Positions 7,372 to 27,742 of a stretch of 64,000 bases of DNA are shown in pieces. The stretch lies in assembly GCA_903821365.1 (NCBI GenBank), contig CAIJKY010000009.1, positions 1-64,000 of the forward strand. The letters are read 5' to 3'. This DNA comes from an uncultured bacterium. Its GTDB lineage: Bacteria > Patescibacteriota > Saccharimonadia > Saccharimonadales > Saccharimonadaceae. The notes under the pieces were generated by a model. That model made no database searches, was not told the origin of the DNA, and was given only the letters and a program-made list of their open reading frames with translations. The first letter of the stretch is position 1; the number at the start of each line of letters is the position of its first letter. The position numbers and the translations under genes were made by a program.

Positions 7372-7372
7372 C

Positions 7373-8864: not shown

Positions 8865-8937
8865 TTCTTAACTATAGCAAATGTTCTCCAGTGCACCGAA
8901 ATTATGTTTTATCATGATTCTCTCATTTCAATTACCA

Positions 8938-8943: not shown

Positions 8944-8949
8944 AAGCGC

Positions 8950-9696
8950 ATGAACAGTAAAAAAACTCAACCAGCTATTTTGATACATGACCTGACGCAT
9001 CGGTATAAAGATACAGAGGTTCTAAAAACGGTTAATCTCTCTGTCATGCCTGGAGAAGTGTTTGGCTTCTTGGGGCACAATGGCGCAGGCAAAACCACGG
9101 CAGTTAACATAATGACAACATTATTAAAACCGAGTAGTGGCAGTGTCAAAATTTTCGGTGAAGATGTTGTGCAGAATAGTTTTGCAGTGCGACGTATTAT
9201 CGGTTATGTGCCAGAATCAGTATTTCTGTACGATACCTTAACCGCCAGGGAGAATCTGATATTTTTCGCAAAACTTTCTGGTGTTGTAAACGCAGAACAA
9301 GCCGTGGCTAAAACCCTTAAATTTCTCGACTGCGAGGGGTTAGCGGACAGGCGACTTGGTACATTTTCTAAGGGTATGCGTCAACGCATCGGCTTGGCTC
9401 AAGCAATTGTTCACCAGCCAAAAGTGTTGTTTCTTGATGAGCCGACATCGGGCCTTGACCCAGAAGGGGTATTATTATTGCGAGCAACAATATTGAGGTT
9501 AAAAACTGACTATGGCATGACAATTTTTATGAACACTCACCTACTTTCAGAAGTGTCAAAAGTATGTACTAATATAGGTATTCTACGCTATGGAAAACTT
9601 CTTTATAGTGGATCACTCGATGACCTCACACATAAATTCCCTGCACGTGCCTTGCTAGAAGACATATACCTTAGCTACGAGAACCAGTCAAAATAA
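8950..9696 (+). CDS. ABC transporter ATP-binding protein
   Basis: 248 aa from ATG 8950. Walker A GHNGAGKT (42-49), signature FSKGMRQRIGLAQ (139-151), Walker B VLFLDEP (159-165) and the H-loop His197 are intact. The domain type is that of ABC-2 exporters (CcmA/NosF-like). A frame reaching 8881 exists, but its extra residues do not look like the family. It is followed by two ABC-2 permeases and two exported proteins, forming a five-gene unit. Confidence 0.94.
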   Translation: MNSKKTQPAILIHDLTHRYKDTEVLKTVNLSVMPGEVFGFLGHNGAGKTTAVNIMTTLLKPSSGSVKIFGEDVVQNSFAVRRIIGYVPESVFLYDTLTARENLIFFAKLSGVVNAEQAVAKTLKFLDCEGLADRRLGTFSKGMRQRIGLAQAIVHQPKVLFLDEPTSGLDPEGVLLLRATILRLKTDYGMTIFMNTHLLSEVSKVCTNIGILRYGKLLYSGSLDDLTHKFPARALLEDIYLSYENQSK

Positions 9697-9697
9697 T

Positions 9698-10615
9698 ATG
9701 CATGTTATTATTGCACGCCACTACATGCAACTGGCCTTACGCAACCGATCTTTTGTTGCATTTGCAACTATTTTGATAGGCATGACGATTGCGTCAGGTG
9801 TTATTGGGCTTTTGTCTCATCAAACAATAATTTCAGTCTACAACATCACTGCCTCTGAGCTTCAAGCAAGTGGCAAGGCTATACCTCCTAATCCTTTTGC
9901 TAGCGCGTCCAGCCTATCTTTAATCAAGAATATGATGATCTACATTCCGCTTGTTGGCGCATTAATTGCGATCATTATTGGCAATGATGCTGTTGCCGCA
10001 GATCGGAGCGCGGGAGTTGCAAAAATACTATTTTCGCGACCAATCAATCGAGCGGTGTACGTTAGGGGCAAATTGTTAGCCGCAAGCGGTATTTTAGGAG
10101 GAGTGCTTGGCGTATGCTTGCTTGTCAGTTGTATATCGCTTGCAATTATCATTGGCCATACAAGTTCTGTTGCCGAATATGTTGCCTTGATCATATTCTA
10201 TTTTGCGTCTTTTATGTACTTACTATTCTTTGTGCTTGTTGGTATGATCTCGGCTATGCTATTGTCGAGCAGGCTCGTCGCTACGTTATCTGCGATAGGA
10301 GTATGGGTAATGGTGACCTTTATTCTTCCGCAAATAGTCTCTGGCGTCAGCCCAGTTGCCTCGCTCAATCCTGTCTCGCAAGCCATCGCCTACCAAAACA
10401 GTCAATTCTTCCAATTCACTAGCTGGTTTTCGTTTATGTCGTTTGCTGAATCATATAAACATATAGCGGGCGGCCTGCTTGGAGTATCTTCGTCGAACCT
10501 CCTTGATGCGCTACGCTTTGCCGTGCCGATAACGGCGGCGATAACAGCACTATATGTTCTTACAGTGAAGGCCGCAGGAGCCATGAGCACCTATGAAGGC
10601 GGTTCCTATGAATAA
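9698..10615 (+). CDS. ABC-2-type permease (NosY-like)
   Basis: 305 aa with about six membrane helices. The pattern of an N-terminal helix, an outer loop, and then GNDAVAADRSAGVAKILFSR with PINRAVYVRGK is that of NosY-like ABC-2 permeases, whose conserved cytoplasmic loop contacts the ATPase. It starts two bases after the ATPase stop and overlaps the next permease by eight bases. The transported substrate is not evident from sequence. Confidence 0.88.
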   Translation: MHVIIARHYMQLALRNRSFVAFATILIGMTIASGVIGLLSHQTIISVYNITASELQASGKAIPPNPFASASSLSLIKNMMIYIPLVGALIAIIIGNDAVAADRSAGVAKILFSRPINRAVYVRGKLLAASGILGGVLGVCLLVSCISLAIIIGHTSSVAEYVALIIFYFASFMYLLFFVLVGMISAMLLSSRLVATLSAIGVWVMVTFILPQIVSGVSPVASLNPVSQAIAYQNSQFFQFTSWFSFMSFAESYKHIAGGLLGVSSSNLLDALRFAVPITAAITALYVLTVKAAGAMSTYEGGSYE

Positions 10616-11576
10616 TATATTTACGCTTGCACGACATGAAGTCATCACAGTGCTACGTAGTAAGATATTGTTGGCGCTTATCGCAATCTTCACACTCACA
10701 ACTGCCATATCGGTACTCGTTGCTTCTTATGTTTTCAAGGCGCAAGTTGCGGATTACAACGCATATGTGCAGGCCGCTCAAGCGGCGGGTGTTGCTCGTC
10801 TCCCTCCCTCGCCTCTGCATCCCTTGCAGTTATTGCGTGGCTCAATCGAATATATTGAAATTGTCGGCACGCTTATCGCCATAGCGATCGGCTATGCTGG
10901 GGTTGTACGTGAACGATCAAGCAAGACAATGCGGATACTTATGAGTCGGCCGATCTCGACTTGGCAGATATTTAGTGCTAAGATCTTGGGTACGGTCGCG
11001 ATGTTGACTATTCTAATAGTATCAATGAATATTGTCGCCTATGTCTCGATTGGAGCAGTGAGCGGCTTATGGTTGCAAACCGTAGATCTCATGAGACTAG
11101 GAGTCGCGTCACTAGCGGCAATCGCTTTTCTAACAATTTTCTACTGTCTTGGTGCTGCCGCAGCGCAGTTGAGCAAAGTACCGCTTCGAGGATTTATGGT
11201 TGGTATTGGATTCTGGCTAATAATCGTTATGATTGCCCCACAGATAGGTGACACCATGGATCCAGATAACCAAGTTCCTGGCGGGTTGTTTAATGCCCTC
11301 CAGGTCCAGAAAGCCCAAGAAAAGTCAATACTCGCGCACTTTGCGGGGTATGAGGCGGTGCGTAATGGTATCGAAGAAATATCAGTCGAGAAGCATTATG
11401 AGCGATTTGTCTTTGCCGTTACTGGCATCAAAGACATCTATAACGGCAAGACCATGGGCTTTATAGTTAAGGACAGGGCGGGCGACCTGGCCTGGCTCGT
11501 GGGTGGCCTGGGCGTTGCTTCGGGTGTGTTTCTTTGGAGTTTGCGACGCAAAATTATAATCGAAAGAGGAGGATAG
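10608..11576 (+). CDS. Second ABC-2-type permease
   Basis: 322 aa, about six membrane helices, paralogous in layout to the preceding permease: GYAGVVRERSSKTMRILMSR with PISTWQIFSAK is the matching coupling loop. ATG 10608 overlaps the previous stop by eight bases (ATGAATAA) and is preferred to an in-frame ATG at 10593. Together with its neighbour it would form a heterodimeric channel. A large extracytoplasmic insertion is visible before the last helices. Confidence 0.88.
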   Translation: MNNIFTLARHEVITVLRSKILLALIAIFTLTTAISVLVASYVFKAQVADYNAYVQAAQAAGVARLPPSPLHPLQLLRGSIEYIEIVGTLIAIAIGYAGVVRERSSKTMRILMSRPISTWQIFSAKILGTVAMLTILIVSMNIVAYVSIGAVSGLWLQTVDLMRLGVASLAAIAFLTIFYCLGAAAAQLSKVPLRGFMVGIGFWLIIVMIAPQIGDTMDPDNQVPGGLFNALQVQKAQEKSILAHFAGYEAVRNGIEEISVEKHYERFVFAVTGIKDIYNGKTMGFIVKDRAGDLAWLVGGLGVASGVFLWSLRRKIIIERGG

Positions 11577-11579
11577 AGC

Positions 11580-12155
11580 ATGAATCGTAAAAAGCTATTA
11601 ATTATCGCAGTTGTCGTGGTGTTTATCGCAATGGCTGTAATTATTATCACTCAAGTTAAAGGAACCAAGACTGCAGTAGATTCGCAGCCGTCTGCGGCAA
11701 GTAAAAGCCAGCAGTCCGTACTCCCCATCACATCCGGTAATCCTATCGTCAACACGGCCACGCAAAAAGGATTTGAGATCGTTTCTGGGATAGCGGAGAA
11801 TAATGTGGATGCGAGCGGCAAGGTGGTAAATGATCACATTGAAATAAAAATCAAGAATACTAGCGGTAAGGTACAAAGTAATTTTGAAGTATTTTATACT
11901 ATAAAAGACATTACAACCAATCAAACAGACGCCTATTACTCAAAGTTGACGAACTTTGTACTTGCAGCGGGAGAAAGTAAAAGTATTCACTTTGATAATA
12001 CTGGTCAAGCCGGACATTATGCCGAGAATAAATATAGTCTTTATCATACATCGCCAAATCAAATGCGTATCAATGTGAGCGTTAGTACTCCCGGTTATGC
12101 AATCCAGTCGATTGATATACATAAAGATGCTGGCAAGCCAGAAAAGGTAGATTGA
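11580..12155 (+). CDS. Membrane-anchored beta-sandwich protein of the ABC operon
   Basis: 191 aa. One N-terminal helix (about 5-24) and a Ser/Gln-rich spacer lead to a domain of alternating strands (about 60-185) rich in IKIKNTSGK, FEVFYTIKDI and KSIHFDN motifs, like extracytoplasmic Ig-like domains that pair with transporters. No cysteine lipobox is seen. It starts three bases after the permease, behind AGAGGAGG, so it is certainly in the operon. No specific family could be named with confidence. Confidence 0.7.
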   Translation: MNRKKLLIIAVVVVFIAMAVIIITQVKGTKTAVDSQPSAASKSQQSVLPITSGNPIVNTATQKGFEIVSGIAENNVDASGKVVNDHIEIKIKNTSGKVQSNFEVFYTIKDITTNQTDAYYSKLTNFVLAAGESKSIHFDNTGQAGHYAENKYSLYHTSPNQMRINVSVSTPGYAIQSIDIHKDAGKPEKVD

Positions 12156-12933: not shown

Positions 12934-14136
12934 TTAAAAACCTGCGTAGTTTTTATAAGCAGTATATGCAGGCAATAGAGTACGTGAGCCAGTCGTCAAA
13001 AGGCCGTAGCCCGGTGTGTCACTGTTTTCGTGCAGAATGTACCAACATATTGGCGAGCGAATTTCGAAGGTTGTTCCTTTATTCCAAGCTTTCATGGCAT
13101 CCATAAGGCCGACAATGTAAGAGGCTTTACCTTCTTCAGATTGCGGTGAGCACGGTGATTGCTGGCTGGCGCCTAGGCCACTACTCCAACAACCAACTTC
13201 AGTAATCCAGATCGGTTTACTGGCCCAAGCTGGATCTGCCGACATAGCAGTTTTAAGATCGTCCATTGATGCCATGGTGACATCGACTGTGCTACCATAT
13301 GGGTGATAGCCCATGCCGTCCATCCATTGCCACGCCTGACTTTTCTTCATTTCCGCAAGCCATGGTCCAATGTTGGTTGACCAGTTCGAAAGGCCGCCAT
13401 AAATAAGGGCGCCCTGCGGATCGTTGGTATGAATTGTTGAATATGCAGCTTTTTGAAACTCTAAATATGCCGCTTGTGCACAGACCATGTCACCAGGCGT
13501 AGCATTATTGTTACAGTAGTTATTTTCTGGTGTCCAGCCACCATCCATCTCATTACCAATCTCCCAAACGTGAACACCATACGGTTTTAATGCATCCATG
13601 TCAGCTGCGAGGGTCTGTTGAAAAGTGCTAATGCTCATATTTATGTCGCAGTTGTATGTCGGCAAGAATGTGATGCCGTGCGCTTGCAGTGTCTTGGCGA
13701 CTTCAACAGCTTCGCTAGTATTGCCGCAAGCCATCCAGCCACGCATCCACTTGACGCCAGCATTTTGCATATCGGTTGCGTCTTGGCTAAATTGAGCGTT
13801 ACTATCTTCAACCATGCCTTTTGAAATACCAGGTGCCGCCGAAGCAACCGGTGTTGAGCCGCCGCCTGTTGCGGGAGGGGTTGTCCCAGTGCCACCACCG
13901 GTGCTGTCTATGACGCCAAACAGAAGATATTTACTGTTTGATGCGGTTTGATCAGTTTCTATGCGTGCGTCACCACTGCCATTTTCTGGCTCAATTGATC
14001 GTGCGTCACCAGTCGCTGCCATTGAAAGTGACAGTAAGAAGCCGGCAATACCGACTGATGCGGCAATAATTAATGCTGCATAGAAGTTTCGCTGCCGAGG
14101 CTTTGGGTGTGAACTAATTGTGTTGGTGTGGGGCAT
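12934..14136 (-). CDS. Secreted glycoside-hydrolase-like protein (clan A fold)
   Basis: 400 aa. An N-terminal helix (about 19-41) is followed by a short module with SIEPENG (48-54) and SNSKYLLFG (66-74), a Gly/Thr/Pro linker (78-98) and a TIM-barrel-like domain. WEIGNEMDGG gives the likely acid/base Glu196 (Asn-Glu pair) and WITEVG the nucleophile Glu313, the spacing expected of clan A glycosidases. Cysteines at 137, 163, 208, 219, 316 and 329 could form disulfides. The substrate is unknown. The same N-terminal module appears in the cytochrome b5 protein at 26625. Confidence 0.78.
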   Translation of the reverse strand: MPHTNTISSHPKPRQRNFYAALIIAASVGIAGFLLSLSMAATGDARSIEPENGSGDARIETDQTASNSKYLLFGVIDSTGGGTGTTPPATGGGSTPVASAAPGISKGMVEDSNAQFSQDATDMQNAGVKWMRGWMACGNTSEAVEVAKTLQAHGITFLPTYNCDINMSISTFQQTLAADMDALKPYGVHVWEIGNEMDGGWTPENNYCNNNATPGDMVCAQAAYLEFQKAAYSTIHTNDPQGALIYGGLSNWSTNIGPWLAEMKKSQAWQWMDGMGYHPYGSTVDVTMASMDDLKTAMSADPAWASKPIWITEVGCWSSGLGASQQSPCSPQSEEGKASYIVGLMDAMKAWNKGTTFEIRSPICWYILHENSDTPGYGLLTTGSRTLLPAYTAYKNYAGF

Positions 14137-16132: not shown

Positions 16133-17782
16133 ATGTATAGTCGCACGCTGATAATAGGAACACGCGGGAGTCAACTGGCATTGGCTCAAACTCGATTTGT
16201 CGTGGAAGCACTCCATAAAATTGCACCTAAAGCTGCAATAACTGTTAAAGTCATTAGCACAAAAGGCGACGTCAATGATGCTCCAATACCGATGACAACG
16301 GTCGGCAAAACCTGGTTCACTGCCGAGATCGAACAAGCGCTCATGAGCGGTACGATCGATATCGCCGTCCATAGTCTTAAGGACGTTGCGCCAGAAAATC
16401 ACGCCGAGCTCTGCACACTTCCGGTGCTCGACAGGGAAGACCCTTATGATGTTTTGGTAAGTCAACATCAGCAAACAATTGCTGAGTTACCGAAGCATGC
16501 GGTTGTTGGTACCGACAGCATCCGTCGCAAAGCGGCGCTGCTCCAGCTTCGCCCAGATTTATACGTAAAAAGTATTCGTGGCAATATCAATACGCGGTTA
16601 GCAAAGCTTGCGACAGCCGAGTACGACGCCATCGTCATCGCGGCAGCAGGACTCGTGCGGCTTGGATTGCAGGATCGTATCAGCCAAAAATTCACTGCCG
16701 ATGAGTGCACTCCTGCTATTGGGCAGGGTGTTATCGCTGTGCAGTTTAAGAAGGATAATAAACAGCTCGCGTCATTAGTTGAGGCTATATCCAATGACAC
16801 ACTACAACAAACGGTTGCCATCGAGCAGGCATTTTCACAGATTGCCGATGGCGGTTGCAAACGTCCGGTTGGCTGCTTGGCTAAAGTAATAAAAGACCAA
16901 GTTACAATTGTGGGCATGGTTGGATCTGAAGATGCACAGCATACCGCAAGTCGTGAGGTCACGGGCAATGTTGATCAGGCAATCCAGCTTGCCGAGACGT
17001 TAGCCAGTCAATTAAAAACGACGCTTGCCAACCATAGGTCCGATGCGAAATATGTTGTATTAACTCGCGACCAAGCAGGTAACCGACAGTGGCGACCTCT
17101 ATTTGAGGCTGTCGGCCTCAAGGTGTATGAATTGCCATGCATCGCTATAGAGCCGCTTAACTCTGACGCAGATGAAGTAGCGGTCATAAAGGCTATTAAA
17201 ATGCATGACTGGGTTGTCTTTACGAGTGCGAATGGAGTTCGCGCGTTCGCAGCACTAGCGGCAAAACATAATTTTGCAGTTACGTCACTTCCTAAGGTCG
17301 CGGTTATCGGCGCATCAACAGCAAAAGCGCTTGAAAAAATCGGTGCGGACGTTGCTTACATTCCTGAGCACACTTCATCAAAAGGTCTTGCTGCAGGATT
17401 CCCCGCTGAGGCTGGCGCAAAGGTTTTGTTACTACGGACATCGATCGCGCTCGAAGACTTACCAACTGATTTGCGTGCTCGCGGTTTCATTGTCGATGAG
17501 CGAGCGGTATACACGACCAAATTGATTACAACGCCAGACCCTACGTATGCGCGCTTAGTTGCAGATGGCCAAGTGGGCTGTGTTGTATGTGCCAGCCCTT
17601 CAGCGGTTCAAGGCTTTATGGCGCGAACCGCTTCGCTAAAAAACGCTAAATCTGCACCAATGTACGTTATGGGTGAAAGCGTTGTGAAAACGCTACGCGC
17701 TAACGGTTATCAAGACATTGTTGATCCAAATTCACCGTCGCTCGAAGGCTTGCTGCAAGACATCCGCCAGAGACTGCTATAA
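16133..17782 (+). CDS. hemC: Porphobilinogen deaminase-uroporphyrinogen III synthase fusion (HemC-HemD)
   Basis: 549 aa. Residues 5-300 are HemC: GTRGSQLALAQ (9-19), catalytic Asp84 in SLKDVAP, arginines binding the acidic chains, and the dipyrromethane-cofactor Cys242 in GGCKRPVG. Residues 305-549 are HemD (YVVLTRDQAGNRQW onward). The fused enzyme would turn four porphobilinogens into uroporphyrinogen III without releasing unstable hydroxymethylbilane. ATG 16133 is chosen over an upstream frame from 16103. Fusions of these two steps are known in several bacteria. The first gene of the hem operon; no hemA, hemL or hemB lies in the window. Confidence 0.95.
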   Translation: MYSRTLIIGTRGSQLALAQTRFVVEALHKIAPKAAITVKVISTKGDVNDAPIPMTTVGKTWFTAEIEQALMSGTIDIAVHSLKDVAPENHAELCTLPVLDREDPYDVLVSQHQQTIAELPKHAVVGTDSIRRKAALLQLRPDLYVKSIRGNINTRLAKLATAEYDAIVIAAAGLVRLGLQDRISQKFTADECTPAIGQGVIAVQFKKDNKQLASLVEAISNDTLQQTVAIEQAFSQIADGGCKRPVGCLAKVIKDQVTIVGMVGSEDAQHTASREVTGNVDQAIQLAETLASQLKTTLANHRSDAKYVVLTRDQAGNRQWRPLFEAVGLKVYELPCIAIEPLNSDADEVAVIKAIKMHDWVVFTSANGVRAFAALAAKHNFAVTSLPKVAVIGASTAKALEKIGADVAYIPEHTSSKGLAAGFPAEAGAKVLLLRTSIALEDLPTDLRARGFIVDERAVYTTKLITTPDPTYARLVADGQVGCVVCASPSAVQGFMARTASLKNAKSAPMYVMGESVVKTLRANGYQDIVDPNSPSLEGLLQDIRQRLL

Positions 17783-17783
17783 T
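17776..17783 (+). promoter_or_regulatory. Internal extended -10 for hemQ
   Basis: TGCTATAAT spans the last codons and the stop of hemCD. TATAAT (17778-17783) ends seven bases before the hemQ ATG, so hemQ may also be transcribed alone as a leaderless mRNA. Confidence 0.5.
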
Positions 17784-17790
17784 ACCGCTT

Positions 17791-18468
17791 ATGGATCCGC
17801 TGCTACACCCGTATCATCATTATCTTTTCTTTGATCTTACATCAGACTTTTATCAGCAACCCAAGACTGCTCAATCGCAAGTACGTGATGCTTTTGCTGA
17901 ATGGTGCACCTCGCACGACCAAGCAATTATATACACTTATGCGACGCGTAGTTTTCAAACAGATAGTGTTTTTATGTTATGGGTACAAGCGAAAACGCCC
18001 GAGTACACCCCGGCTCTTTTGGGCGAGCTGTATCGTACATCAATCGGTCCATGGCTGGCACTCACGGCAACTCGCTTTGGCATTGTCCGTCCATCACAGT
18101 ACAGTGGGCGCACAGGTGAACCTCAGCAAGTTATTCAAAACTATACTGAGCGCTTGCCGTACTTTATCGTCTATCCGTTTACCAAGACGATTGATTGGCA
18201 CCTGCTTGAATATGACGCGCGACGGCAATTGATGGGCGGGCATATACGGGTTGGACTGCAATATCCAAAAATTCGCCAATGCCTGCTTTACTCGTATGGT
18301 GTTGACGATGATGAATTTGTCGTATCATACGAGGCGGAGTCGCTCGAACATTTTCAAGACTTGGTGATCGAGTTGCGCAAGACGGAGGCGCGACGCTATA
18401 CGCTGCGCGACACGCCAATATACACCTGTCTTTATATGGATGCAAAAAAACTAGCGGCTTGGCTCTGA
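17791..18468 (+). CDS. hemQ: Coproheme decarboxylase (HemQ/ChdC)
   Basis: 225 aa, chlorite-dismutase superfamily. YPFTKTIDWHLL carries the HemQ active-site Tyr128 and Lys132, and the proximal heme ligand is most likely His151 (MGGH). KIRQCLLYSYGVDDDEF places Gln163 where true chlorite dismutases have a distal Arg, supporting decarboxylation of coproheme to heme b rather than chlorite breakdown. The terminal RYTLRDTPIYTC is also typical. HemQ defines the coproporphyrin-dependent route of monoderm bacteria. It lies eight bases after hemCD. Confidence 0.93.
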   Translation: MDPLLHPYHHYLFFDLTSDFYQQPKTAQSQVRDAFAEWCTSHDQAIIYTYATRSFQTDSVFMLWVQAKTPEYTPALLGELYRTSIGPWLALTATRFGIVRPSQYSGRTGEPQQVIQNYTERLPYFIVYPFTKTIDWHLLEYDARRQLMGGHIRVGLQYPKIRQCLLYSYGVDDDEFVVSYEAESLEHFQDLVIELRKTEARRYTLRDTPIYTCLYMDAKKLAAWL

Positions 18469-18484
18469 GCCCGAAAGGATACCA

Positions 18485-19495
18485 ATGAACGATACATTTT
18501 TGCGAGCCTGTCGAAATGAAGTTACCGAATACACGCCTGTCTGGTTTATGCGTCAAGCTGGCCGCTCGCTGCCCGGCTATCGCGCGCTACGAAAGAAGTA
18601 CGATGTCTTGACGCTGACGCAAACGCCAGAGCTTGCCGCGCAGGTCAGTCTTGAGCCGATTGAGCGTCTTGGCGTTGATGCCGCGATTCTTTTTGCTGAC
18701 ATTATGTTGCTTCCGATTGCTATGGGTATGGATGTGAAAATTGTCGATTCAGTCGGGCCGGTTATCGACGACCCAATCAATGTACCTACCGACATTGATG
18801 CGCTCCGTCCGTTTGAACCACAGAGTGTTGATTTTTTACAGCAAACGATTCGGCTGCTTCGCCAAGATCTCAAGGTGCCGTTAATCGGCTTTTCGGGTGC
18901 GCCATTCACGCTTGCAAGCTACATGATCGAAGGCAAGCCAACGCGCCAATGGCTTAAAACAAAGCGCTTCATGTACGAGCAGCCTGAAGCTTGGCACAGG
19001 TTAATGAAGTTGCTTGCCGAAGCCTCGGTGCTGTACCTTCACCAACAAGTTGTTGCCGGCGCCCAAGCTTTGCAGCTGTTTGACAGCTGGGTCGGCTGCC
19101 TTGCTGCTAGTGACTATCGTGAGTTTGTTCTCCCTCACATGACTTACATTTTTGATGAATTACGCAAAGAAAATGTACCACTTATTCACTTCGGCACTGA
19201 TACAAGCGGTCTGTTGCAAGAGTTCGCAAGCGTCAATGCTGATGTGATCGGTATCGACTGGCGGGCTGATATGGCACGCGCTCGCGCAATTGTGCCAGCT
19301 GATAAAGCTGTGCAAGGCAACCTTGACCCAATGTTACTGCTTGGCAATGAGGCGTTATTGTATCGCCGAGTTGACGCATTGTTGCAGTCGATGCCAGAGA
19401 AAAAAGGCTACATATTTAATTTTGGCCACGGTGTTCAACCTGAAACTGATGACACTCGGCTTAAAGCATTAGTGGAGTATGTCCATGACAACTAG
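18485..19495 (+). CDS. hemE: Uroporphyrinogen decarboxylase
   Basis: 336 aa, full family length. PVWFMRQAGRSLPGY (18-32) contains the two substrate-binding arginines Arg23 and Arg27, and FADIM provides Asp72. It removes four acetate carboxyls from uroporphyrinogen III to give coproporphyrinogen III. AAAGGA lies seven bases before the ATG, and the gene begins 16 bases after hemQ. Its last eleven bases overlap hemH. Confidence 0.96.
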   Translation: MNDTFLRACRNEVTEYTPVWFMRQAGRSLPGYRALRKKYDVLTLTQTPELAAQVSLEPIERLGVDAAILFADIMLLPIAMGMDVKIVDSVGPVIDDPINVPTDIDALRPFEPQSVDFLQQTIRLLRQDLKVPLIGFSGAPFTLASYMIEGKPTRQWLKTKRFMYEQPEAWHRLMKLLAEASVLYLHQQVVAGAQALQLFDSWVGCLAASDYREFVLPHMTYIFDELRKENVPLIHFGTDTSGLLQEFASVNADVIGIDWRADMARARAIVPADKAVQGNLDPMLLLGNEALLYRRVDALLQSMPEKKGYIFNFGHGVQPETDDTRLKALVEYVHDN

Positions 19496-20480
19496 TATTG
19501 TCGGTGTTCTATTGATGACTTATGGCTCGGCAACAACGGCCGAAAACGTGCAGGCGTATATGGACCATGTCTATCCGAATGGCGTACCGCAAGGCCTTGT
19601 CGAAGATTTTGAAAACCGTTATGCACTGGTCGGCCAATCTCCATTGATTGCAATTACGCGTGAGCAAGCACGATTAACGCAAGAATTACTTAATGGCAAA
19701 AAAGCAGCTAACATTCAGTATGTTGTTCGTGTTGGAATGCTGCATTCGGCACCATTTATCGCAGATTCATTGGCCGAATTACGCCAAGCAGGCGCCGAGC
19801 GAATTATTGGTATCATGTTGGCGCCTCAATTCTCACCGCTCATTATGAGTGGGTACGGTGTTGCTTGGGCCGAGGCAATAAATGCACAGGGCTATGATGA
19901 GTCAACGGCACACATTGTGGAATCATGGCCGCTCGAGCCCCACTTTATTCAGCTACTTGCCGAGAGAACAAGCGCTAAGCTTGCAGAGTTAACAAAACGC
20001 TACGGTATGGCACCAACTGTGCTGTTTACGACGCACAGCTTGCCGGAGCGTGTCGTTGACCGTGATCGTTCGTATCTCGACCAGTTAAAAGCAACCACTG
20101 AAGCAGTGGTTGCAAAGCTTGGCCAGCCCAATCTTATATGGCATCAGGCCTATCAAAGCGCCGGCCACACGCCAGAACCATGGCTAAAACCTGACATTGT
20201 CGACGTACTAGCCGATATTCGTCGCGAGCAACCGAATGAAAAAGGCATCTTGATTGTGCCATTGCAATTTTTGGCCGATCATTTAGAAATCCTCTATGAT
20301 CTTGATATTGCGGGCGGTGAACAGTGTGCGGAATTTGGGTTTGAATATAATCGAATCGAATTGCCGAACACCGCTCCTTTACTGATCGAAGCACTCGCGT
20401 CAATCGTTTTGCAAGAATCTACAGATACAGTTAAAGCCCATAGCGCACCGAGTCGTAGTATCAGGAGTGATAAAGCTTAA
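19485..20480 (+). CDS. hemH: Ferrochelatase (coproporphyrin type, HemH/CpfC)
   Basis: 331 aa. LLMTYGS (9-15) opens the fold. The metal-handling His184 sits in TTHSLPERV and Glu268 in FLADHLEILYD, close to the Bacillus pattern. With HemQ in the same operon, it probably inserts iron into coproporphyrin III rather than protoporphyrin IX. No C-terminal iron-sulfur cysteines are seen. ATG 19485 has GGAG eight bases upstream; ATG 19479 is an alternative. It overlaps hemE, so expression is coupled. CgoX (HemY), needed between HemE and HemH, is not in the window. Confidence 0.95.
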   Translation: MTTSIVGVLLMTYGSATTAENVQAYMDHVYPNGVPQGLVEDFENRYALVGQSPLIAITREQARLTQELLNGKKAANIQYVVRVGMLHSAPFIADSLAELRQAGAERIIGIMLAPQFSPLIMSGYGVAWAEAINAQGYDESTAHIVESWPLEPHFIQLLAERTSAKLAELTKRYGMAPTVLFTTHSLPERVVDRDRSYLDQLKATTEAVVAKLGQPNLIWHQAYQSAGHTPEPWLKPDIVDVLADIRREQPNEKGILIVPLQFLADHLEILYDLDIAGGEQCAEFGFEYNRIELPNTAPLLIEALASIVLQESTDTVKAHSAPSRSIRSDKA

Positions 20481-20498
20481 GTTAATTATAAATAACTA

Positions 20499-20527
20499 TT
20501 GACTTTTTAGCTAATATACTGTATAAA
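20499..20527 (+). promoter_or_regulatory. Sigma-70-type promoter of the copper-radical oxidase gene
   Basis: TTGACT (20499-20504) and TATAAA (20522-20527) are separated by exactly 17 bases. Transcription would begin near 20534, giving a leader of about 37 bases with GGAG before ATG 20571. The oxidase is therefore transcribed apart from the heme operon. Confidence 0.7.
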
Positions 20528-20570
20528 TAACACTATCAATAAAACTCGTGAGATGAGTGGAGTGAAGTGT

Positions 20571-23114
20571 ATGACATCGCAATCTTTTTATTATAAACGG
20601 CAGCTATCGCGCTTTGGCAACTTGTTTGCAGCCGTCTTGCTAGCGTCAACTTTTGTGACGCAGCTTATAGTGCCTGCAGCAAACGCTGCACCGGCCATTA
20701 TTACTAACCCAAGCCTTGAACAAACAACGGGTGGAGTGCCAAACTGTTTCACTCAAGCAGGGTGGGGCGACAACACCGCAACGTGGGGCATTACGAATGC
20801 TGCACATACGGGCAACGCCGCGCAGTCACTCACCGTCACTAACTACAATGGTGGTGACCGCAAACTTCTGATGGATCAAAATGACAACTGTGCGCCCGCA
20901 GTGACGCCAGGTTCTACCTATAAACTAGGTGTTTGGTACAAGTCAACAGCTACGAAAAACGCTTTGACCGTATTCCGTCATTCAGCAGCAGGCTGGACGT
21001 ACTGGACCGATCTCACCGGTCTTGCGGCGGCAAACGCTTGGACACAGGCTACGGCTACAACTCCAGTCGTTCCTGAAGGTACTGATCAAATTTCATTCGG
21101 CATCTCACTTGCCGCAAACGGCACACTCGTAACCGATGACTATACATTCACACAGGTAACCGGTGGCACGCCTCCTGCTCAAAATACTGAGCTTACCTAC
21201 AACGGCAACCTTGAAGCTGGCGGCGCAACACCGACCGGTTGGATGCTTGCTGGTTGGGGTGATGCAAAGGTAACCGCTGCCGCAACAACTACTGGTGTTC
21301 ATGGCGGCACTCGTGCATACTCGATAACACTCGCTGGCCGTACGCAAGGTGACTACAAGTTACTTCCTGCAGACGCCAACGCTCCTGCCGTACAACCTGG
21401 TACAGTCTACACATTATCAACATGGTACAAAGCAACCACTGCAAGCAATAGCGTGACGGTATTTACGCACACAGCAAACGGTTGGGGATACTGGACTGAT
21501 ATTCAGACGCTACCTGCTGCTGCAAACTGGACACAAGTCACCACTGACACGCCAGTCGTGCCTGCAGGTGTCGATGCAATTGCTTGGGGTATCTCAACTT
21601 ATGGCAATGGCACACTTACAACTGACGATTATTCAACAGTGAAAAAAGGTACTGTTGTTGCGCCACCAGTAAATACGCCAGCAAGCCAAGGTCAGTGGAC
21701 AACGCTTGACTACCAATTACCAATACGTGCTATTCACTCGACACTGCTTAAGAACGGCAAAGTATTACTTATTGCCGGATCGGGCAACAGCACCGATGAC
21801 TTTAAAGCTGGTACCTTTAAGGCCTCTGTCTGGGATCCAATTGCCAACACGTTCTTAAACCTTACGGTGCCAAAAGATATGTTTTGTGCTGGACACGTAA
21901 CGTTGCCTGATGGTCGTGTGCTTATCCAAGGTGGAACAAAGTCGTACCCAACCATCGTTGGTGGTGCGGACTACGGCGGTCTTCGTGACTCATGGATTTT
22001 TGATCCTGACACTAACACTTTTACTGCCACGAACATGGCCAATGAAGGTCACTGGTACCCAACGCTCACCGAGCTTGGCAGTGGTGATATCTGGATGGCA
22101 GGTGGTCTCAAAGAAGACACCAGCGGTGCCGTTAATACTGAGCGCTTTGACTACGCAAGTGGTAAGTGGCTCGCGAACAATCAAGTTGCACAAACCTACT
22201 CATTCTGGGGTCTTTATCCACACATGTTCCTACTGCAAGACGGCCGTATGTTCTACAGCGGTGGCCACGTCTTTGGCAACGGACTGCCTGGTACTGGTGC
22301 TTCAATCTATGATCCAAACGCTGCGACCATTGCTGATATTACCGGCCTACGTCAAAAAGATATGCGTGATCAATCAGCTTCAGTGTTGTTGCCACCAGCA
22401 CAAGACCAAAAAGTATTGATCACTGGTGGTGGTAATATCAACACCAATACACCAGCCATCAGCCTGACTGATATCATCGACCTTAAGCAAGCAACACCAA
22501 CCTACGAAGCCGCTCCAGACATGCCTGGCATGGGCAAGATGTATGTTAACGCAACGACGTTGCCTGACCGTACTGTTCTTACGAGCAACGGTGGCCAGCT
22601 CAACCGCGACAACAACTCTAACGTTTTGACTGCATCGATATATAACCCACTGACTAACAGCTGGGCAACGGTGCCAGCCGACCCTATCGGCCGTAACTAC
22701 CACTCATCTTCAGTACTATTACCTGATGGTCGTATCGCAGTGCTTGGTTCAAACCCTGGCGACGGCACCTTCGAAATGCGTATCTCGGTCTACCAACCAA
22801 GCTATATGTTCCGTACTGCGCGCCCAACTATTGCCAATGTTCCTGCCCAAACAACCTATGGCCAACAGTTCTCATTCAACGTCAACGCCCAAGGCAAGAC
22901 GATCAAATGGGCACAGCTGATGCGTCCAATGTCGGTGACACACCAAATGGATTCGAACATGCGTTTGGTTGACCTACCAGTTGTCGTGCAGAACGGTGTT
23001 GCAACAGTCAGTGTGACAGGCAACCGCAACTTATTGCCTCCTGGCCCATACATGCTAACGGTAACTGACTCAGACGGCGTTCCATCAACTGCCTCATGGG
23101 TAATGGTGAAATAA
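20571..23114 (+). CDS. Secreted copper-radical oxidase (galactose/glyoxal oxidase type, AA5-like)
   Basis: 847 aa, or 853 from an in-frame ATG at 20553; residue numbers here use the longer form. A signal peptide ends near ANAAP (43-47). Two similar beta-sandwich domains follow (about 48-202 and 212-363), each with a GWG...WTQ...DDY pattern. A seven-bladed kelch domain begins near 385 and is full of LPDGRVL motifs. Cys445 (MFCAGH) and Tyr502 (HWYPT) match the cross-linked Cys-Tyr cofactor, and Tyr716/His717 (RNYHSS) and His797 (VTHQMD) match the other copper ligands. The family oxidises alcohols or aldehydes and makes hydrogen peroxide. The substrate is unknown. The closest bacterial relatives by pattern are GlxA-type enzymes. 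Confidence 0.92.
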   Translation: MTSQSFYYKRQLSRFGNLFAAVLLASTFVTQLIVPAANAAPAIITNPSLEQTTGGVPNCFTQAGWGDNTATWGITNAAHTGNAAQSLTVTNYNGGDRKLLMDQNDNCAPAVTPGSTYKLGVWYKSTATKNALTVFRHSAAGWTYWTDLTGLAAANAWTQATATTPVVPEGTDQISFGISLAANGTLVTDDYTFTQVTGGTPPAQNTELTYNGNLEAGGATPTGWMLAGWGDAKVTAAATTTGVHGGTRAYSITLAGRTQGDYKLLPADANAPAVQPGTVYTLSTWYKATTASNSVTVFTHTANGWGYWTDIQTLPAAANWTQVTTDTPVVPAGVDAIAWGISTYGNGTLTTDDYSTVKKGTVVAPPVNTPASQGQWTTLDYQLPIRAIHSTLLKNGKVLLIAGSGNSTDDFKAGTFKASVWDPIANTFLNLTVPKDMFCAGHVTLPDGRVLIQGGTKSYPTIVGGADYGGLRDSWIFDPDTNTFTATNMANEGHWYPTLTELGSGDIWMAGGLKEDTSGAVNTERFDYASGKWLANNQVAQTYSFWGLYPHMFLLQDGRMFYSGGHVFGNGLPGTGASIYDPNAATIADITGLRQKDMRDQSASVLLPPAQDQKVLITGGGNINTNTPAISLTDIIDLKQATPTYEAAPDMPGMGKMYVNATTLPDRTVLTSNGGQLNRDNNSNVLTASIYNPLTNSWATVPADPIGRNYHSSSVLLPDGRIAVLGSNPGDGTFEMRISVYQPSYMFRTARPTIANVPAQTTYGQQFSFNVNAQGKTIKWAQLMRPMSVTHQMDSNMRLVDLPVVVQNGVATVSVTGNRNLLPPGPYMLTVTDSDGVPSTASWVMVK

Positions 23115-23124
23115 GGAAACAACT

Positions 23125-23733
23125 ATGAAGAATCTTTCTACACATACTATTGCAGCTTCGACAAAACGTTTTGTCACCAGTCGTTCAGGTATTATCTGCC
23201 TATTGATCCTCGCCGTACTTGCTACTGGATTAGTCGTACTCGGCGGTCGCATCGCGACCCAGGCGGTCGCAGCCGGTGCTCACCAACACGGACTTGCAAC
23301 GGCTAACTCTGAACAACAAGCGACCAGCCATGAGCATGGTGGTGCGACGGTGAGCACTGCTGGTGCAACAACCAACACCAACCCAGCAACCCAAAAGCAA
23401 GTCAGTCTTGCCAGCGCCGCTTCACAAGAAAAGGGGAACGGTACAACAGTTGATAAGCCAGCCGCAGACGTTACTGGCACACAGAAACAAGTTGATCCAC
23501 TCTCTGTCTTGCCAAACACGAAGGCGACTGGAGTACTATCAAGCGGTTGTGCAGTTGGTTATGGACAGATCGGCACCCAATGTCTCTCAGCTCGTGCTGC
23601 CAACAACAAGCCAATGACCTGCACGGAAGCGCGCAAGCAATTCCCAAGCGGTATTGCGGTTACGGGTAACGATCAGCTCAACCTTGACTCCAACAAGAAC
23701 GGTGTTGCTTGCGATGCTGGTGACAAAGCCTAA
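23125..23733 (+). CDS. Exported excalibur-like protein with His-rich segment
   Basis: 202 aa. A signal anchor (about 22-48) is followed by a low-complexity region containing AHQHG and SHEHGG and many Thr/Ala/Gln residues. The C-terminus (142-198) has four cysteines (142, 153, 166, 196) and ends with LDSNKNGVACD, the calcium-loop signature of excalibur domains. It begins ten bases after the oxidase stop behind AAGGAA, so it is cotranscribed. The His clusters could bind copper and serve the oxidase, which is an inference. Confidence 0.78.
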   Translation: MKNLSTHTIAASTKRFVTSRSGIICLLILAVLATGLVVLGGRIATQAVAAGAHQHGLATANSEQQATSHEHGGATVSTAGATTNTNPATQKQVSLASAASQEKGNGTTVDKPAADVTGTQKQVDPLSVLPNTKATGVLSSGCAVGYGQIGTQCLSARAANNKPMTCTEARKQFPSGIAVTGNDQLNLDSNKNGVACDAGDKA

Positions 23734-23752
23734 AAATTAAGCTCTATAGCGA

Positions 23753-23784
23753 GAAAAAGACATCGGTTCGCTGATGTCTTTTTC
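23753..23784. terminator. Intrinsic terminator after the oxidase operon
   Basis: GAAAAAGACATC (23753-23764) pairs with GATGTCTTTTTC (23773-23784) over an eight-base loop. The A and T runs make it usable on both strands. Confidence 0.88.
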
Positions 23785-23815
23785 GATATTAACTCTGTTA
23801 TGCGATAATAAGCAT

Positions 23816-24415
23816 ATGCGCAAAACACTCGTCTTCTTATTTGTGGCTGCACTCCTCGGAGTGTTAGCGGCGACGACTGCACCAAGTACGAGTAAAATTG
23901 ATGCTATTGCCGCGACACCCTCCCAACCTAAAGCACCGTCACCGAAAACCCCTACGACGCCTACTAAAAATCCGCCACTCAGCGGCACGAATCCTGGCGA
24001 TGAGCCGATTAAAACGCCGGCACCTGCACCGACGCCGACTACCCCCACCGAGCAAGCGCCACCGGTCGCAACAAGCCCAACCCCAGACCCCACTCCTGCG
24101 CCAGAGCCCACGCCAATACCTGAGGTAAAACCATTCAAGACCGGCTCGTTTGACGGTGCGCTGATCACTAATAAATATGAGAAGGTGCAAGTACGGCTTA
24201 GTAGTAATGGTGATGCAATGACAGACATCACTATGATTGTTCTGACACCTTCCTCGGCACGCTCAATTCAAATCACTAATGACGCCATCCCAAAGCTACG
24301 CCAGCAAGCGCTTGATTATCAAACTGCGGATGTCGATAATGTCAGCGGCGCAACATATACATCGGATAGCTACAAGCAGTCACTGCAAGCAGCAATTGAT
24401 CAAGCAGCTAACTAA
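23816..24415 (+). CDS. Exported FMN-binding protein, substrate of ApbE
   Basis: 199 aa from ATG 23816. A signal sequence (about 5-33) and a long Pro/Thr linker (35-105) lead to an FMN-binding domain (108-199). The flavinylation motif is DNVSGATYTS, with Thr180 the expected phosphoester attachment site for FMN. Domains of this type carry electrons outside the membrane in Nqr, Rnf and flavin-based extracellular transfer systems. GATAAT preceded by TGC (23801-23809) is six bases before the ATG, so it looks leaderless; a frame from 23774 would run through the terminator. The ApbE gene follows after three bases. Confidence 0.9.
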   Translation: MRKTLVFLFVAALLGVLAATTAPSTSKIDAIAATPSQPKAPSPKTPTTPTKNPPLSGTNPGDEPIKTPAPAPTPTTPTEQAPPVATSPTPDPTPAPEPTPIPEVKPFKTGSFDGALITNKYEKVQVRLSSNGDAMTDITMIVLTPSSARSIQITNDAIPKLRQQALDYQTADVDNVSGATYTSDSYKQSLQAAIDQAAN

Positions 24416-24418
24416 GCG

Positions 24419-25171
24419 ATGCCGCGTTACTTGCGTATTGTTGAGACGGTAATGGGTATACCAGTCAGTATTGAAGCTGATGCTACAAGCGATGTGATTG
24501 GACAGGCTTTTGCGGCACTGCATAAGGTCGATGCACAATTTAGTATGTATCTGCCAGCAAGCGAGCTATGCCAGTACAGAGCTGGCACATTGACTGACGA
24601 GCAAGTATCACCAGAAATGCGTGAAGTTATGCGCAGCTGCGAGAAGTTGCAGGCTCAAACGGAAGGGTATTTCTCGGCTTACTATTCGGGTAATTTTGAT
24701 CCAACAGGCTATGTAAAAGGCTGGGCAATTGCACGAGCAGCAAAAGTTCTACACACAGCCAATGTCGTCTGCTATAGCATTAATGCAGGTGGTGATGTCA
24801 TGATGGCCAGCAATGGTGAAAAACTGTGGAGAGTTGGCATACAAGATCCACGCGACTCGCGACGAATACTCGGGAGGGTTTCGATAAAAAGCGGTGCTAT
24901 CGCGACTTCAGGCAATTACGTTCGCGGGGCGCACATTTATGATCCAAAGCGTGGGGTGGTTGTTGATGATGGTTCGAGTGTCTCGATCATCGGTCCGGAT
25001 ATCGTGCTCGCGGATGTCTATGCCACGGCTTGCATTGCAATGGGCAATGACAAAGCAATTCGATTTATCGCACAACAACCAGATTATGAAGCGCTATTTG
25101 TCCAGGCAAACGGTGAGCTCATGGCGACAGCGGGCTTTATGAAGAATTTTAGTACGCAAATCGTTCGATAA
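24419..25171 (+). CDS. apbE: FAD:protein FMN transferase (ApbE)
   Basis: 250 aa, on the short side for ApbE. The main motifs are present: FDPTGYVKGWAIARAA, SINAGGDV, GAIATSGNY and HIYDPKRG, plus the metal-site region ADVYATAC. There is no signal peptide, so either it acts in the cytoplasm or the start lies elsewhere. It moves FMN from FAD onto Thr180 of the protein encoded three bases upstream. Its last 23 bases overlap the end of the opposing reductase gene. Confidence 0.93.
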   Translation: MPRYLRIVETVMGIPVSIEADATSDVIGQAFAALHKVDAQFSMYLPASELCQYRAGTLTDEQVSPEMREVMRSCEKLQAQTEGYFSAYYSGNFDPTGYVKGWAIARAAKVLHTANVVCYSINAGGDVMMASNGEKLWRVGIQDPRDSRRILGRVSIKSGAIATSGNYVRGAHIYDPKRGVVVDDGSSVSIIGPDIVLADVYATACIAMGNDKAIRFIAQQPDYEALFVQANGELMATAGFMKNFSTQIVR

Positions 25172-26465
25172 TAACGCGCTGTTTTGGAAATCCAAGCTCT
25201 TTTAGCGTTTTTTGAAATGCTTTGCTCATACCGTCAGGCCCGCAAATATAAATAGTGGTGTCCTCAACGGCGTACTGAGCAAGCACCTCCCGGGTTATAT
25301 GAATATTATACTCACTAACGTAAAGTCGGATGGTTAGGCCAAATGGCTGCAGGGCGCGTAGCTCATTGATAAAAGCCACGTCACTCATGGTTTTTGCCGC
25401 GTATAATAACGTTACTTGTTTGCGTTGACGGAGCAACATGTTCGCGGTTGAGAGAAATGGTGCCACACCGATGCCGCCGCCAATAAGAACAGCTTTTGAC
25501 GTAAGCTCAGCGCGATCAGCGCCAAAATTACCTCGCGGTCCATCAACCAGCACTCGAGCACCTGGCTTCAGGTCACGGAGCTTTGCTGTATAACTGCCGC
25601 TGACTTTGGCAGTAAAGCGCAACAACCCGTTATCGATTGGCGAAGAAATAGAAAAAGGGTGTGATTCGGTCCACAATCCACGCGCCATAATGCGCCAGTT
25701 TGCATATTGCCCCGGTTGGAATTTAAAACGTTGAATATTGCGACCAGTCAAGAATACCGAATATGTATTGGCAGCAGCACGCTCGACGGCATACACACGA
25801 AAGTCGTATTTGATCGCTAGCCAATACGGCCGGAGCACGCGATACCAAGCCCAGATAAGCGTGACAAAACCATAGAGCCCGTACCAAAAAGCCGTAAACC
25901 ATGGCGAGCCAATAAAATCATTACCATTCGGAATCTGATGAAGAAAAGTAAGCACAATCGCAAGATAAATCGTCAAGTGTACGACGTACCACAGCTCATA
26001 GCGAATGTTCGTGCGGATGATACGCACCGAGAGACTTGTTGCTAAAAAGAAAACCCCTGTTCCAATTGTTGCCATTAAGATATCTTCGTAGTGATTGTTG
26101 AAATCAAGAAACTGAGCCCACAAGGATAAACTACCGGCCGCGTAGCTTATCGTCAAGAAAACGACATGCGCGCTGATAGATAATAGTACTCCGTAGCCGG
26201 TTAAACGATGTAAATCAATAATATCTTGTAAGTCAAAGTCGCGTTCAATAAACGGAGCGCGACTCATAAGTGTTAACTCAAGCAAGACACAGAATGCTGC
26301 AAGTAACCCAAATAGTCTACCGATAGACATAAGTCTCTCATTTGGACCGGCTATGTCATGGCCGCTTGCCATCCACCAGCCGTAGAGTATGACAGCAAGT
26401 ACTGCGCAGATTGCAGTATAAAATAAGAAGCGTATATGCTTACGATGTTGAGTGGCGTGTTTCAC
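25149..26465 (-). CDS. Heme b/FAD/NAD(P) membrane reductase (ferric-reductase-like)
   Basis: 438 aa. Six membrane helices fill residues 12-210. Two His pairs, His86/His100 and His163/His176, are spaced for two stacked b hemes as in ferric reductases and NADPH oxidases. The cytoplasmic part has the FAD motif HPFSISS (269-275), the nucleotide motif GGGIGVAP (329-336) and CGPDGM (408-413), ending in an aromatic Tyr. It would move electrons from NAD(P)H across the membrane. The start is GTG 26465. It is convergent with, and overlaps, apbE, and is divergent from the cytochrome b5 gene. Confidence 0.92.
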   Translation of the reverse strand: MKHATQHRKHIRFLFYTAICAVLAVILYGWWMASGHDIAGPNERLMSIGRLFGLLAAFCVLLELTLMSRAPFIERDFDLQDIIDLHRLTGYGVLLSISAHVVFLTISYAAGSLSLWAQFLDFNNHYEDILMATIGTGVFFLATSLSVRIIRTNIRYELWYVVHLTIYLAIVLTFLHQIPNGNDFIGSPWFTAFWYGLYGFVTLIWAWYRVLRPYWLAIKYDFRVYAVERAAANTYSVFLTGRNIQRFKFQPGQYANWRIMARGLWTESHPFSISSPIDNGLLRFTAKVSGSYTAKLRDLKPGARVLVDGPRGNFGADRAELTSKAVLIGGGIGVAPFLSTANMLLRQRKQVTLLYAAKTMSDVAFINELRALQPFGLTIRLYVSEYNIHITREVLAQYAVEDTTIYICGPDGMSKAFQKTLKELGFPKQRVIIERFAY

Positions 26466-26549
26466 GTGTTGGTTTTTTGTATCCTACGCTAATAGTATAC
26501 CATTACATAATCACTTTCTTAGGGGGTCGGCAAGTAGTGCTTATCTTTA

Positions 26550-26578
26550 TTGACAATCTTTTTACTCTACTGCACACT
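26550..26578 (+). promoter_or_regulatory. Candidate promoter of the cytochrome b5 operon
   Basis: TTGACA (26550-26555) is followed after 17 bases by CACACT (26573-26578) with an upstream TG. The -35 is perfect and the -10 poor. It would give a 40-base leader ending in GAGGTGAGC before ATG 26625. Confidence 0.45.
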
Positions 26579-26624
26579 TAGCATTGATATAGCAGTAACA
26601 AATCATAATTCTTTAGAGGTGAGC

Positions 26625-27251
26625 ATGGCAAAAGTTGGAAAAAAACTAGACAATGTCAGCAGGCGCAACTTCTTCATTGCTGGTGCAATCGGCATATCAG
26701 TAGGTATTGTCGGGTATATAATCACTTTGACGTTGGCCGCTACATCGGCACCAAGCCTTGAACCGGAAAATGCCACACCAGACAATTCTATGAAAACAAT
26801 GGTCATGAATGATACAAGCGCATCGGGTAGCAAATATCTGGAATTTGGAACTTCAATGGGTGGCGGCACGGGCGGCGGTATGGGCGGTGGCGGCATGGGA
26901 ACTGGTACCGGGACAGGTACCGGCACTGGCACGGGAACCGGAACAGGCACTGGAACTGGCGGCACGTCAGGTGCAGCTTGTGGAACTGCTGGTGGCGCGT
27001 GTACCGCAGCGCAGGTCAAAACGCATAACTCACAAACAGATTGCTGGGTGACCTATGAGACAGGGTATTACATTATTTCGAGTTACGTTAATCAGCACCC
27101 AGGTGGCGAGCAGGTGTTCAACTCAGACAGCTGCGGCAATGACATCGGCCCATTCCTTGATGGCACAAAAGGTACAGCTGGGCAACAAATGCAACATGCC
27201 CCCGAAGACTACGATGTGCTCAAAACCTTCTACGTAGGGCCACTGCAGTAA
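26625..27251 (+). CDS. Exported cytochrome b5-type heme protein with Tat-like signal
   Basis: 208 aa from ATG 26625, with GAGG six bases upstream. SRRNFF (12-17) before a hydrophobic stretch resembles a twin-arginine signal. Next come SLEPEN (44-49) and SGSKYLEFG (67-75), shared with the glycosidase-like protein, then a Gly/Met segment and a Gly-Thr repeat (92-110). The C-terminal domain has the heme motif HPGG (His156) and a second candidate ligand, His189, farther away than in classical b5. Four cysteines (117, 124, 138, 168) suit an oxidising compartment. It probably carries electrons outside the membrane next to the flavin and heme b reductase genes. Confidence 0.85.
   Translation: MAKVGKKLDNVSRRNFFIAGAIGISVGIVGYIITLTLAATSAPSLEPENATPDNSMKTMVMNDTSASGSKYLEFGTSMGGGTGGGMGGGGMGTGTGTGTGTGTGTGTGTGTGGTSGAACGTAGGACTAAQVKTHNSQTDCWVTYETGYYIISSYVNQHPGGEQVFNSDSCGNDIGPFLDGTKGTAGQQMQHAPEDYDVLKTFYVGPLQ
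26898..26957 (+). repeat. Gly-Thr dipeptide repeat tract
   Basis: About ten consecutive GGN-ACN codon pairs encode alternating Gly and Thr. The synonymous bases vary along the tract, so it is maintained at the protein level as a flexible linker and is less prone to slippage than a perfect microsatellite. Confidence 0.85.
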
Positions 27252-27742
27252 TGGTCGCCCATAAAAAGGTAGCAAGCAGGGCGCAACCAAGCTTGCTTGC
27301 CACATCGATACTGTTTGGCATTATTGGCCTGGCAATTGGCATGACCGTGGCGCTTACTGTTTTTGCGGCACGTCAAAAAGTAGCGCCACTACCGGTTAAT
27401 GTCTCCATTAGTAACATCAAGCATAGCGGTGCAACAAAAGGGTATTTTAACGCAGGTCCAGGTAACGAGTATGTTACCGTGACCGTCAAAGTGCACAACG
27501 GTAGTAATCAAGCCATTGATCTTGCGCCCGCTGTTCAGTCGCGTCTTGTCGATGGTAGTGGCAAGATCTATGGGGTTGTAATCTATATGGTCACCAAGCC
27601 ATTCATAGCAGGTGAACTAAAACCAGGTGAAACTCGAGAGGGGCAGCTAGCATTTATTGCGCCTCTCAAGCCAAACGGATTGACCTTTATAATGAAGGAC
27701 TCACTCAGCCCAACGATGATGTCCTTTAAGCAAGTACTATAA
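27251..27742 (+). CDS. Exported DUF4352-like protein
   Basis: 163 aa. One N-terminal helix (about 16-40) and an Ig-like domain (about 48-163) with EYVTVTVKVHNGSNQAIDL and ELKPGETREGQLAF, the pattern of DUF4352 domains of surface lipoproteins. No lipobox cysteine is present. The ATG shares a base with the previous stop (TAATG), so translation is coupled to the cytochrome b5 gene. A partner or chaperone role for the cytochrome is possible but not shown. Confidence 0.75.
   Translation: MVAHKKVASRAQPSLLATSILFGIIGLAIGMTVALTVFAARQKVAPLPVNVSISNIKHSGATKGYFNAGPGNEYVTVTVKVHNGSNQAIDLAPAVQSRLVDGSGKIYGVVIYMVTKPFIAGELKPGETREGQLAFIAPLKPNGLTFIMKDSLSPTMMSFKQVL

Follow-up and report, generated by a model that had tools for sequence, protein, structure and literature searches.

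Extracytosolic flavinylation systems of the MsrQ-like kind cluster a six-helix heme protein of family PF01794, bearing a C-terminal NAD-binding domain, with an FMN_bind protein and apbE (Meheust et al. 2021, PMC8238504). One FMN_bind domain, that of Streptomyces azureus (PDB 8p2a), has been shown to carry covalent FMN, the protein lying at −184 mV. Here, we compare such systems with a Saccharibacteria locus in a 64,000-nucleotide stretch of DNA (the window: positions 1–64000 of contig C9 in a 1.03 Mb genome of 17 contigs, 95% complete). The heme, oxidase and flavinylation genes that this genome holds are consistent with Saccharibacteria. Judged by its domains and motifs, the core at 23816–27742 is an MsrQ-like extracytosolic flavinylation system, of a kind already described and common in Actinobacteria. 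With moderate confidence, we favour a joint reading in which this core would be extended by a second carrier, an exported cytochrome b5 (b5) with a DUF4352 protein, and in which the adjacent genes for the lower half of heme synthesis would be a separate acquisition.

Genes in the window were identified by Pfam domain searches, those for heme synthesis (hem) and the copper oxidase also being compared with NCBIfam/TIGR models, and the whole genome was read in stretches that were then joined. Counts refer to a class sample of 195 genomes unless a phylum sample (202 genomes spread through the phylum) is named; class counts ignore relatedness, and genus-level counts are given for FMN_bind with COX1 and for reductase with b5. 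Gene content, cofactor residues, recurrent synteny and the missing upstream hem genes are direct readings of these sequences. A sequence-only reading of the locus had named hemCD-hemQ-hemE-hemH, a copper oxidase, FMN_bind, apbE, a reductase and b5, and Pfam searches bore out all of these calls.

The reductase and its flavinylated partner

The membrane two-heme NAD(P)H reductase (25149–26465, minus strand) lies tail-to-tail with apbE and has the Pfam layout Ferric_reduct (PF01794; 7.8e-17, 61.9 bits against a cut-off of 28), FAD_binding_8 (PF08022) and NAD_binding_1 (PF00175, C-terminal; 39.9 bits against 22). The four heme-ligand His residues proposed earlier form the pairs H86/H100 and H163/H176 and are conserved among 12 reductase homologues, H86, H100 and H176 invariantly and H163 nearly so (replaced in one). 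An HPFS flavin motif and a CGP motif are conserved in the same set.

On the plus strand, an exported FMN_bind protein (23816–24415; PF04205 1.6e-6, over the cut-off) combines a signal or anchor segment, a Pro-rich linker and an SGAT motif, and 8p2a is its nearest solved relative (5.1e-14). Its open reading frame (ORF) opens at 23774, and ATG 23816 (Met15) is the likely start; the SGAT Thr, residue 194 of the listed ORF, is Thr180 when counted from Met15, in agreement with the FMN attachment residue first proposed, and the motif aligned in 22 homologues. Directly downstream, apbE (24419–25171, plus strand; PF02424 1.9e-40) encodes a FAD:protein FMN transferase of the short type (about 245 aa) that has no signal peptide; the N-terminus was hydrophobic in none of 23 such genes examined (the window's and 22 related).

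Among the class genomes, FMN_bind occurred in 34, ApbE in 65, Ferric_reduct in 53, COX1 in 69 and Cyt-b5 in 30 (29 of which entered the first co-occurrence script). Chance does not explain how these genes sit together, because FMN_bind adjoins ApbE in 32 genomes, the reductase adjoins ApbE in 24 and the reductase adjoins b5 in 8. The co-occurrence across Saccharibacteria anticipated from sequence alone was found for FMN_bind–ApbE–reductase and for reductase–b5; hemQ was not linked.

Across most Saccharibacteria loci examined, an NqrB/RnfD-like reductase completes the FMN_bind–ApbE unit as its third gene; in the window and two other genomes (G008 and G102) that position belongs to the two-heme Ferric_reduct type, in each case convergent to apbE. 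The NqrB/RnfD domain PF03116 is absent from the window reductase and present in relatives. These three genomes form one clade in every tree (support 1.0 for reductase, 0.96 for ApbE and 0.92 for FMN_bind), which lies nearer to Actinobacteria than to the Nqr/Rnf-like Saccharibacteria modules (FMN_bind 0.98; ApbE and reductase weakly). The direction of transfer between Saccharibacteria and Actinobacteria is not settled, because only three actinobacterial sequences were included in the trees. The equivalent trio in Streptomyces adjoins a two-component system.

The main rival treats the reductase as a bacterial NADPH oxidase reducing outside oxygen, with FMN_bind and b5 as unrelated neighbours. 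The best solved relatives of the reductase are the group of PDB 8qt6 (8.8e-24), which we take to be the NOX of Streptococcus pneumoniae (SpNOX); the His, FAD and NAD layouts are alike, and genomes with FMN_bind are enriched for a terminal oxidase, as befits aerobes. SpNOX needs neither FMN_bind–ApbE nor b5, yet the reductase repeatedly adjoins one or the other, and the trees of FMN_bind, ApbE and reductase return the same three-genome clade. We therefore consider an SpNOX-like role unlikely and prefer the MsrQ-like reading.

The strong association of FMN_bind and ApbE with a bo3-type oxidase gene ties flavinylation to aerobic Saccharibacteria: by genus, FMN_bind and COX1 occurred together in 23 against 13 expected (p = 6e-6). 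By genome, a bo3-type oxidase gene accompanied FMN_bind in 27 of 34 and ApbE in 49 of 65. The window's own genome holds three flavinylation modules within 1 Mb, the further two being FMN_bind–ApbE–Nqr/Rnf-like (C11:80310–83241) and FNR-type reductase–ApbE–short Ferric_reduct (C13:19593–22101). Elsewhere on the latter contig (C13:13662–15686), a DUF1775 (YcnI-like) gene adjoins that of a 263-aa Ferric_reduct protein, a pair that is possibly copper-related.

The exported cytochrome b5 and its DUF4352 partner

Beside the reductase, an exported or anchored b5 (26625–27251, plus strand; PF00173 9.9e-9, 35.6 bits against a cut-off of 23.7) carries a Gly/Thr-rich linker, four Cys in the b5 region and both axial His, H183 (in HPGG) and H216; its ORF opens at TTG 26550, and ATG 26625 is the likely start. 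It is followed by a membrane-anchored DUF4352 protein (27251–27742, plus strand; PF11611 3e-15), a conserved partner of this type of b5. The order reductase–b5–DUF4352 recurs in G048 and G014 (loci L218 and L226), whose b5 proteins resemble the window's in exported layout, linker and arrangement of Cys, and four further genomes (G017, G023, G032 and G044) have a shorter b5 directly after the reductase. Reductase and b5 adjoin in 8 of the 19 class genomes having both, and by genus they occurred together in 19 against 12 expected (p = 9e-4).

An exported b5 is a plausible extra carrier or partner of Ferric_reduct-type reductases, because b5 and reductase are neighbours in 8 of 195 genomes, two of which have DUF4352 alongside. 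This recurrence suggests that an exported b5 can accompany the flavinylated carrier or take its place, an arrangement of which no mention was found in the flavinylation papers searched. By its domains and tree position, the window combines the b5–DUF4352 pair with a reductase that belongs to the FMN_bind clade. Of the electron chain first drawn, the NAD(P)H–FAD–two-heme–FMN module is retained as a sequence-based prediction and b5 gains the backing of its gene neighbourhood; electrons may run through FMN to b5 or along either branch.

Tat export of b5, considered on account of an SRRNFF stretch, was set aside: TatC was not found with an E. coli query, and export by Sec with a membrane anchor is therefore preferred. 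No plasmid relatives of the b5 domain were found. Upstream of b5–DUF4352 in G014, the reductase is split over three ORFs (L226:8437–9805), which may represent either a decayed gene or assembly frameshifts. In the window's own genome, b5 and a glycosidase (12934–14136) show matches to one another and to several further proteins, apparently through a shared N-terminal export/anchor or linker region.

Heme genes and other neighbours

The hem genes lie upstream on the plus strand. A hemC–hemD fusion (hydroxymethylbilane synthase and uroporphyrinogen-III synthase; 16133–17782) occupies one ORF, opened by GTG 16103 with ATG 16133 the likely start (PF01379 1e-70; PF02602 2e-44; TIGR00212 304.7 bits, over the cut-off). 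Next come hemQ/chdC (coproheme decarboxylase, 225 aa; 17791–18468; PF06778, Chlor_dismutase, 4.5e-44), in which Tyr128 of the YPF motif and His151 are conserved in an alignment to solved coproheme decarboxylases, hemE (uroporphyrinogen decarboxylase; 18485–19495; PF01208, URO-D, 2.3e-119) and hemH/cpfC (ferrochelatase; 19479–20480; PF00762 4.7e-62; TIGR00109 over the cut-off).

Such genes were present in four class genomes (HemQ in three, HemE over the cut-off in four), which led us to reject the idea that they have a conserved place in the redox locus. Their order is C-D-Q-E-H in the window and G034, C-D-E-H without HemQ in G106 and Q-E-H in G031, and they adjoin the redox genes of this locus (reductase, FMN_bind or b5) in the window alone. 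No conserved redox unit includes the window hem genes, whose link to the redox locus is local. Since they are rare, and lie away from such redox genes in G034 and G106, the earlier claim of a functional role for the hem operon within the locus is not supported. In G031, some 6 kb separates hemQ-E-H from a module of FNR-type reductase–ApbE–Ferric_reduct, and another FNR-like gene adjoins hemQ-E-H (L162:5713–17540). The window HemQ is nearest to actinobacterial and archaeal members; a scan of GTDB contigs for HemQ returned two known metagenome-assembled genomes only (one labelled Patescibacteria), its strict patterns saying little on donors.

HemC was found in one of the 202 phylum genomes, the window's own. 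HemB was found in none of the 195 class or 202 phylum genomes by a Pfam search that detected 11 of 14 controls, a result that also disposed of HemB hidden in fragments. E. coli queries for HemA, HemL and HemB (partial) gave no tblastn match in the whole 1.03 Mb genome. No CgoX-family (PF01593) protein was found in the window's genome (G000), G031 or G034; the alternative CgoN/YtpQ was not searched for. Because HemA, HemL and HemB were not found while HemC onward is present, porphobilinogen is probably the sole entry to heme synthesis, to be imported by an organism that probably depends on its neighbours. The proposal that heme is made by the neighbouring operon thus holds for the lower-half genes; it lacks HemA, HemL, HemB and a CgoX-family protein. 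Where oxygen is present, coproporphyrinogen oxidises without an enzyme (PMC10965808), and an aerobic lifestyle could therefore cover the CgoX step.

Dependence on others for heme has precedents: a Leucobacter strain has lost hem genes and relies on a partner, at a step different from porphobilinogen entry (PMC6868719), and ‘Ca. Teamsevenus rhizospherense’, encoding only the last step, is assumed to scavenge heme (PMC6031116). Literature searches pairing Patescibacteria with porphobilinogen and Saccharibacteria with cytochrome b5 returned one irrelevant hit and one passing mention, the latter in a paper on Vampirococcus. Queries with CyoA–E located a full cyoABCDE operon on contig C3, beside an NDH-2-like gene (by sequence), which makes the ‘fermentative’ label of the sequence-only reading doubtful.

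These neighbours bear on a second rival, an assimilatory metal reductase whose reduction of outside Fe(III) or Cu(II) would feed the ferrochelatase, copper oxidase and bo3 oxidase. A VIT1 iron transporter occurs in some MsrQ-like clusters (PMC8238504), and ferrochelatase and copper enzymes are indeed close by. Pfam scans of window genes from 4.5 to 30 kb found no metal transporter, and the proximity of the hem genes is not conserved; we judge this role improbable.

Between the hem genes and the flavinylation trio lie two plus-strand genes. The first encodes an exported GlxA/galactose-oxidase-like copper-radical oxidase with a carbohydrate-binding-like N-terminal stretch (20553–23114; GO-like_E_set 8.6e-23; Glyoxal_oxid; 2.5e-89 to GlxA, PDB 4unm). 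Its assignment agrees with the earlier call, the copper-radical residues (Cys, Trp, two Tyr and two His) aligning with 4unm; no evidence ties it to the redox chain in which it had been placed. The second encodes a small exported protein (23125–23733) with a hydrophobic N-terminal segment, no Pfam match and, judged by eye, a C-terminus like an excalibur-type calcium motif. A single operon from hemCD to apbE was considered for its short gaps, yet promoter and terminator scans did no better than shuffles.

On a third view, a variable region has gathered four unconnected pieces of cargo: the hem operon, the copper oxidase, the trio for flavinylation and the b5 pair. Every sub-unit is found alone elsewhere, the copper oxidase and small exported protein separate the hem genes from the trio, and lipase and glycosidase genes sit upstream of hem. 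Chance neighbourhood fits the hem and copper oxidase genes; it does not apply to FMN_bind–ApbE–reductase, and reductase–b5 adjacency recurs, making it a very improbable account of the whole.

Further upstream, 4485–12155 holds a two-component system (4485–6176, minus strand), PAP2, DUF2127 and an ABC exporter. In G041 the flavinylation module is surrounded by relatives of most of these genes, and in G129 and G015 by relatives of some. The relatives of the two-component system lie directly downstream of the G041 module (response regulator 287 bits, histidine kinase 227 bits), making it a possible regulator of flavinylation.

Proposed electron path and comparison with known systems

Under the joint reading, cytosolic NAD(P)H would reduce FAD on the reductase and electrons would traverse the membrane through its two b hemes to FMN, which ApbE would attach to the anchored FMN_bind protein at Thr180. 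The b5, with the DUF4352 protein, would be a second exported carrier, fed by the reductase or the FMN domain, and FMN and b5 would deliver electrons to an outer acceptor: oxygen, a metal or a protein of the envelope. As a separate and rare acquisition, the hem operon would make heme from porphobilinogen onward, with porphobilinogen coming from outside and coproporphyrinogen oxidised by another enzyme or none; this heme would supply the reductase and b5 as well as the bo3 oxidase. Electron-transfer steps, acceptor and porphobilinogen uptake are all what we infer from sequence.

Several observations weigh against this reading. FMN_bind and b5 stand together beside one reductase in the window alone among the class genomes, and the b5-linked reductases form a clade separate from the window reductase. 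The window ApbE lacks an export signal although its substrate is exported, and it must therefore be assumed that flavin is attached before export or by some other route. HemA and HemL were looked for solely with E. coli queries and in this genome alone and, the genome being 95% complete, HemB could still conceivably sit in the missing part.

A bolder version, which we advance only tentatively, is that of a dependent patescibacterium whose heme comes solely from the porphobilinogen of other cells and is used both in aerobic respiration and in electron export, through the FMN domain and, in parallel, the b5 of a previously unrecognised reductase–b5–DUF4352 unit. Of all these elements, the lower half of the heme pathway most deserves testing. 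If the reading is true, a cross-feeding point lies partway along the heme pathway; that a few lineages hold its lower half points to porphobilinogen as the compound traded, and the source of heme in Saccharibacteria that have a bo3 oxidase becomes a testable question.

Set against the coproporphyrin-dependent pathway (HemE-CgoX-CpfC-ChdC), the window has HemC, HemD, HemE, HemH and HemQ, whereas HemA, HemL, HemB and CgoX were not found in its genome. The copper oxidase keeps every aligned copper-site residue of Streptomyces GlxA (Cys-Tyr, Trp, Tyr and His) but has a longer N-terminal region and, at 415 bits, falls short of the NCBIfam equivalog cut-off of 800. The reductase shares the heme/FAD/NAD layout of SpNOX, in an alignment that leaves out its N-terminal 114 residues, including the first His pair, but unlike SpNOX it sits with flavin and b5 carriers. 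Like Nqr/Rnf-like two-subunit flavinylation systems (PMC8238504, PMC11334425), the locus pairs FMN_bind–ApbE with an NAD-binding reductase, whose membrane domain is nevertheless the heme-type Ferric_reduct rather than NqrB/RnfD. With MsrQ-like systems it shares the PF01794 His pairs, C-terminal PF00175, SGAT-type FMN_bind and apbE; it differs in its host, from a patescibacterial class, in a reductase gene that converges on apbE instead of running the same way, and in the exported b5–DUF4352 pair and adjacent hem operon. The electron-transfer core belongs to a known class of system, although its host is unusual and a recurrent b5 addition accompanies it.

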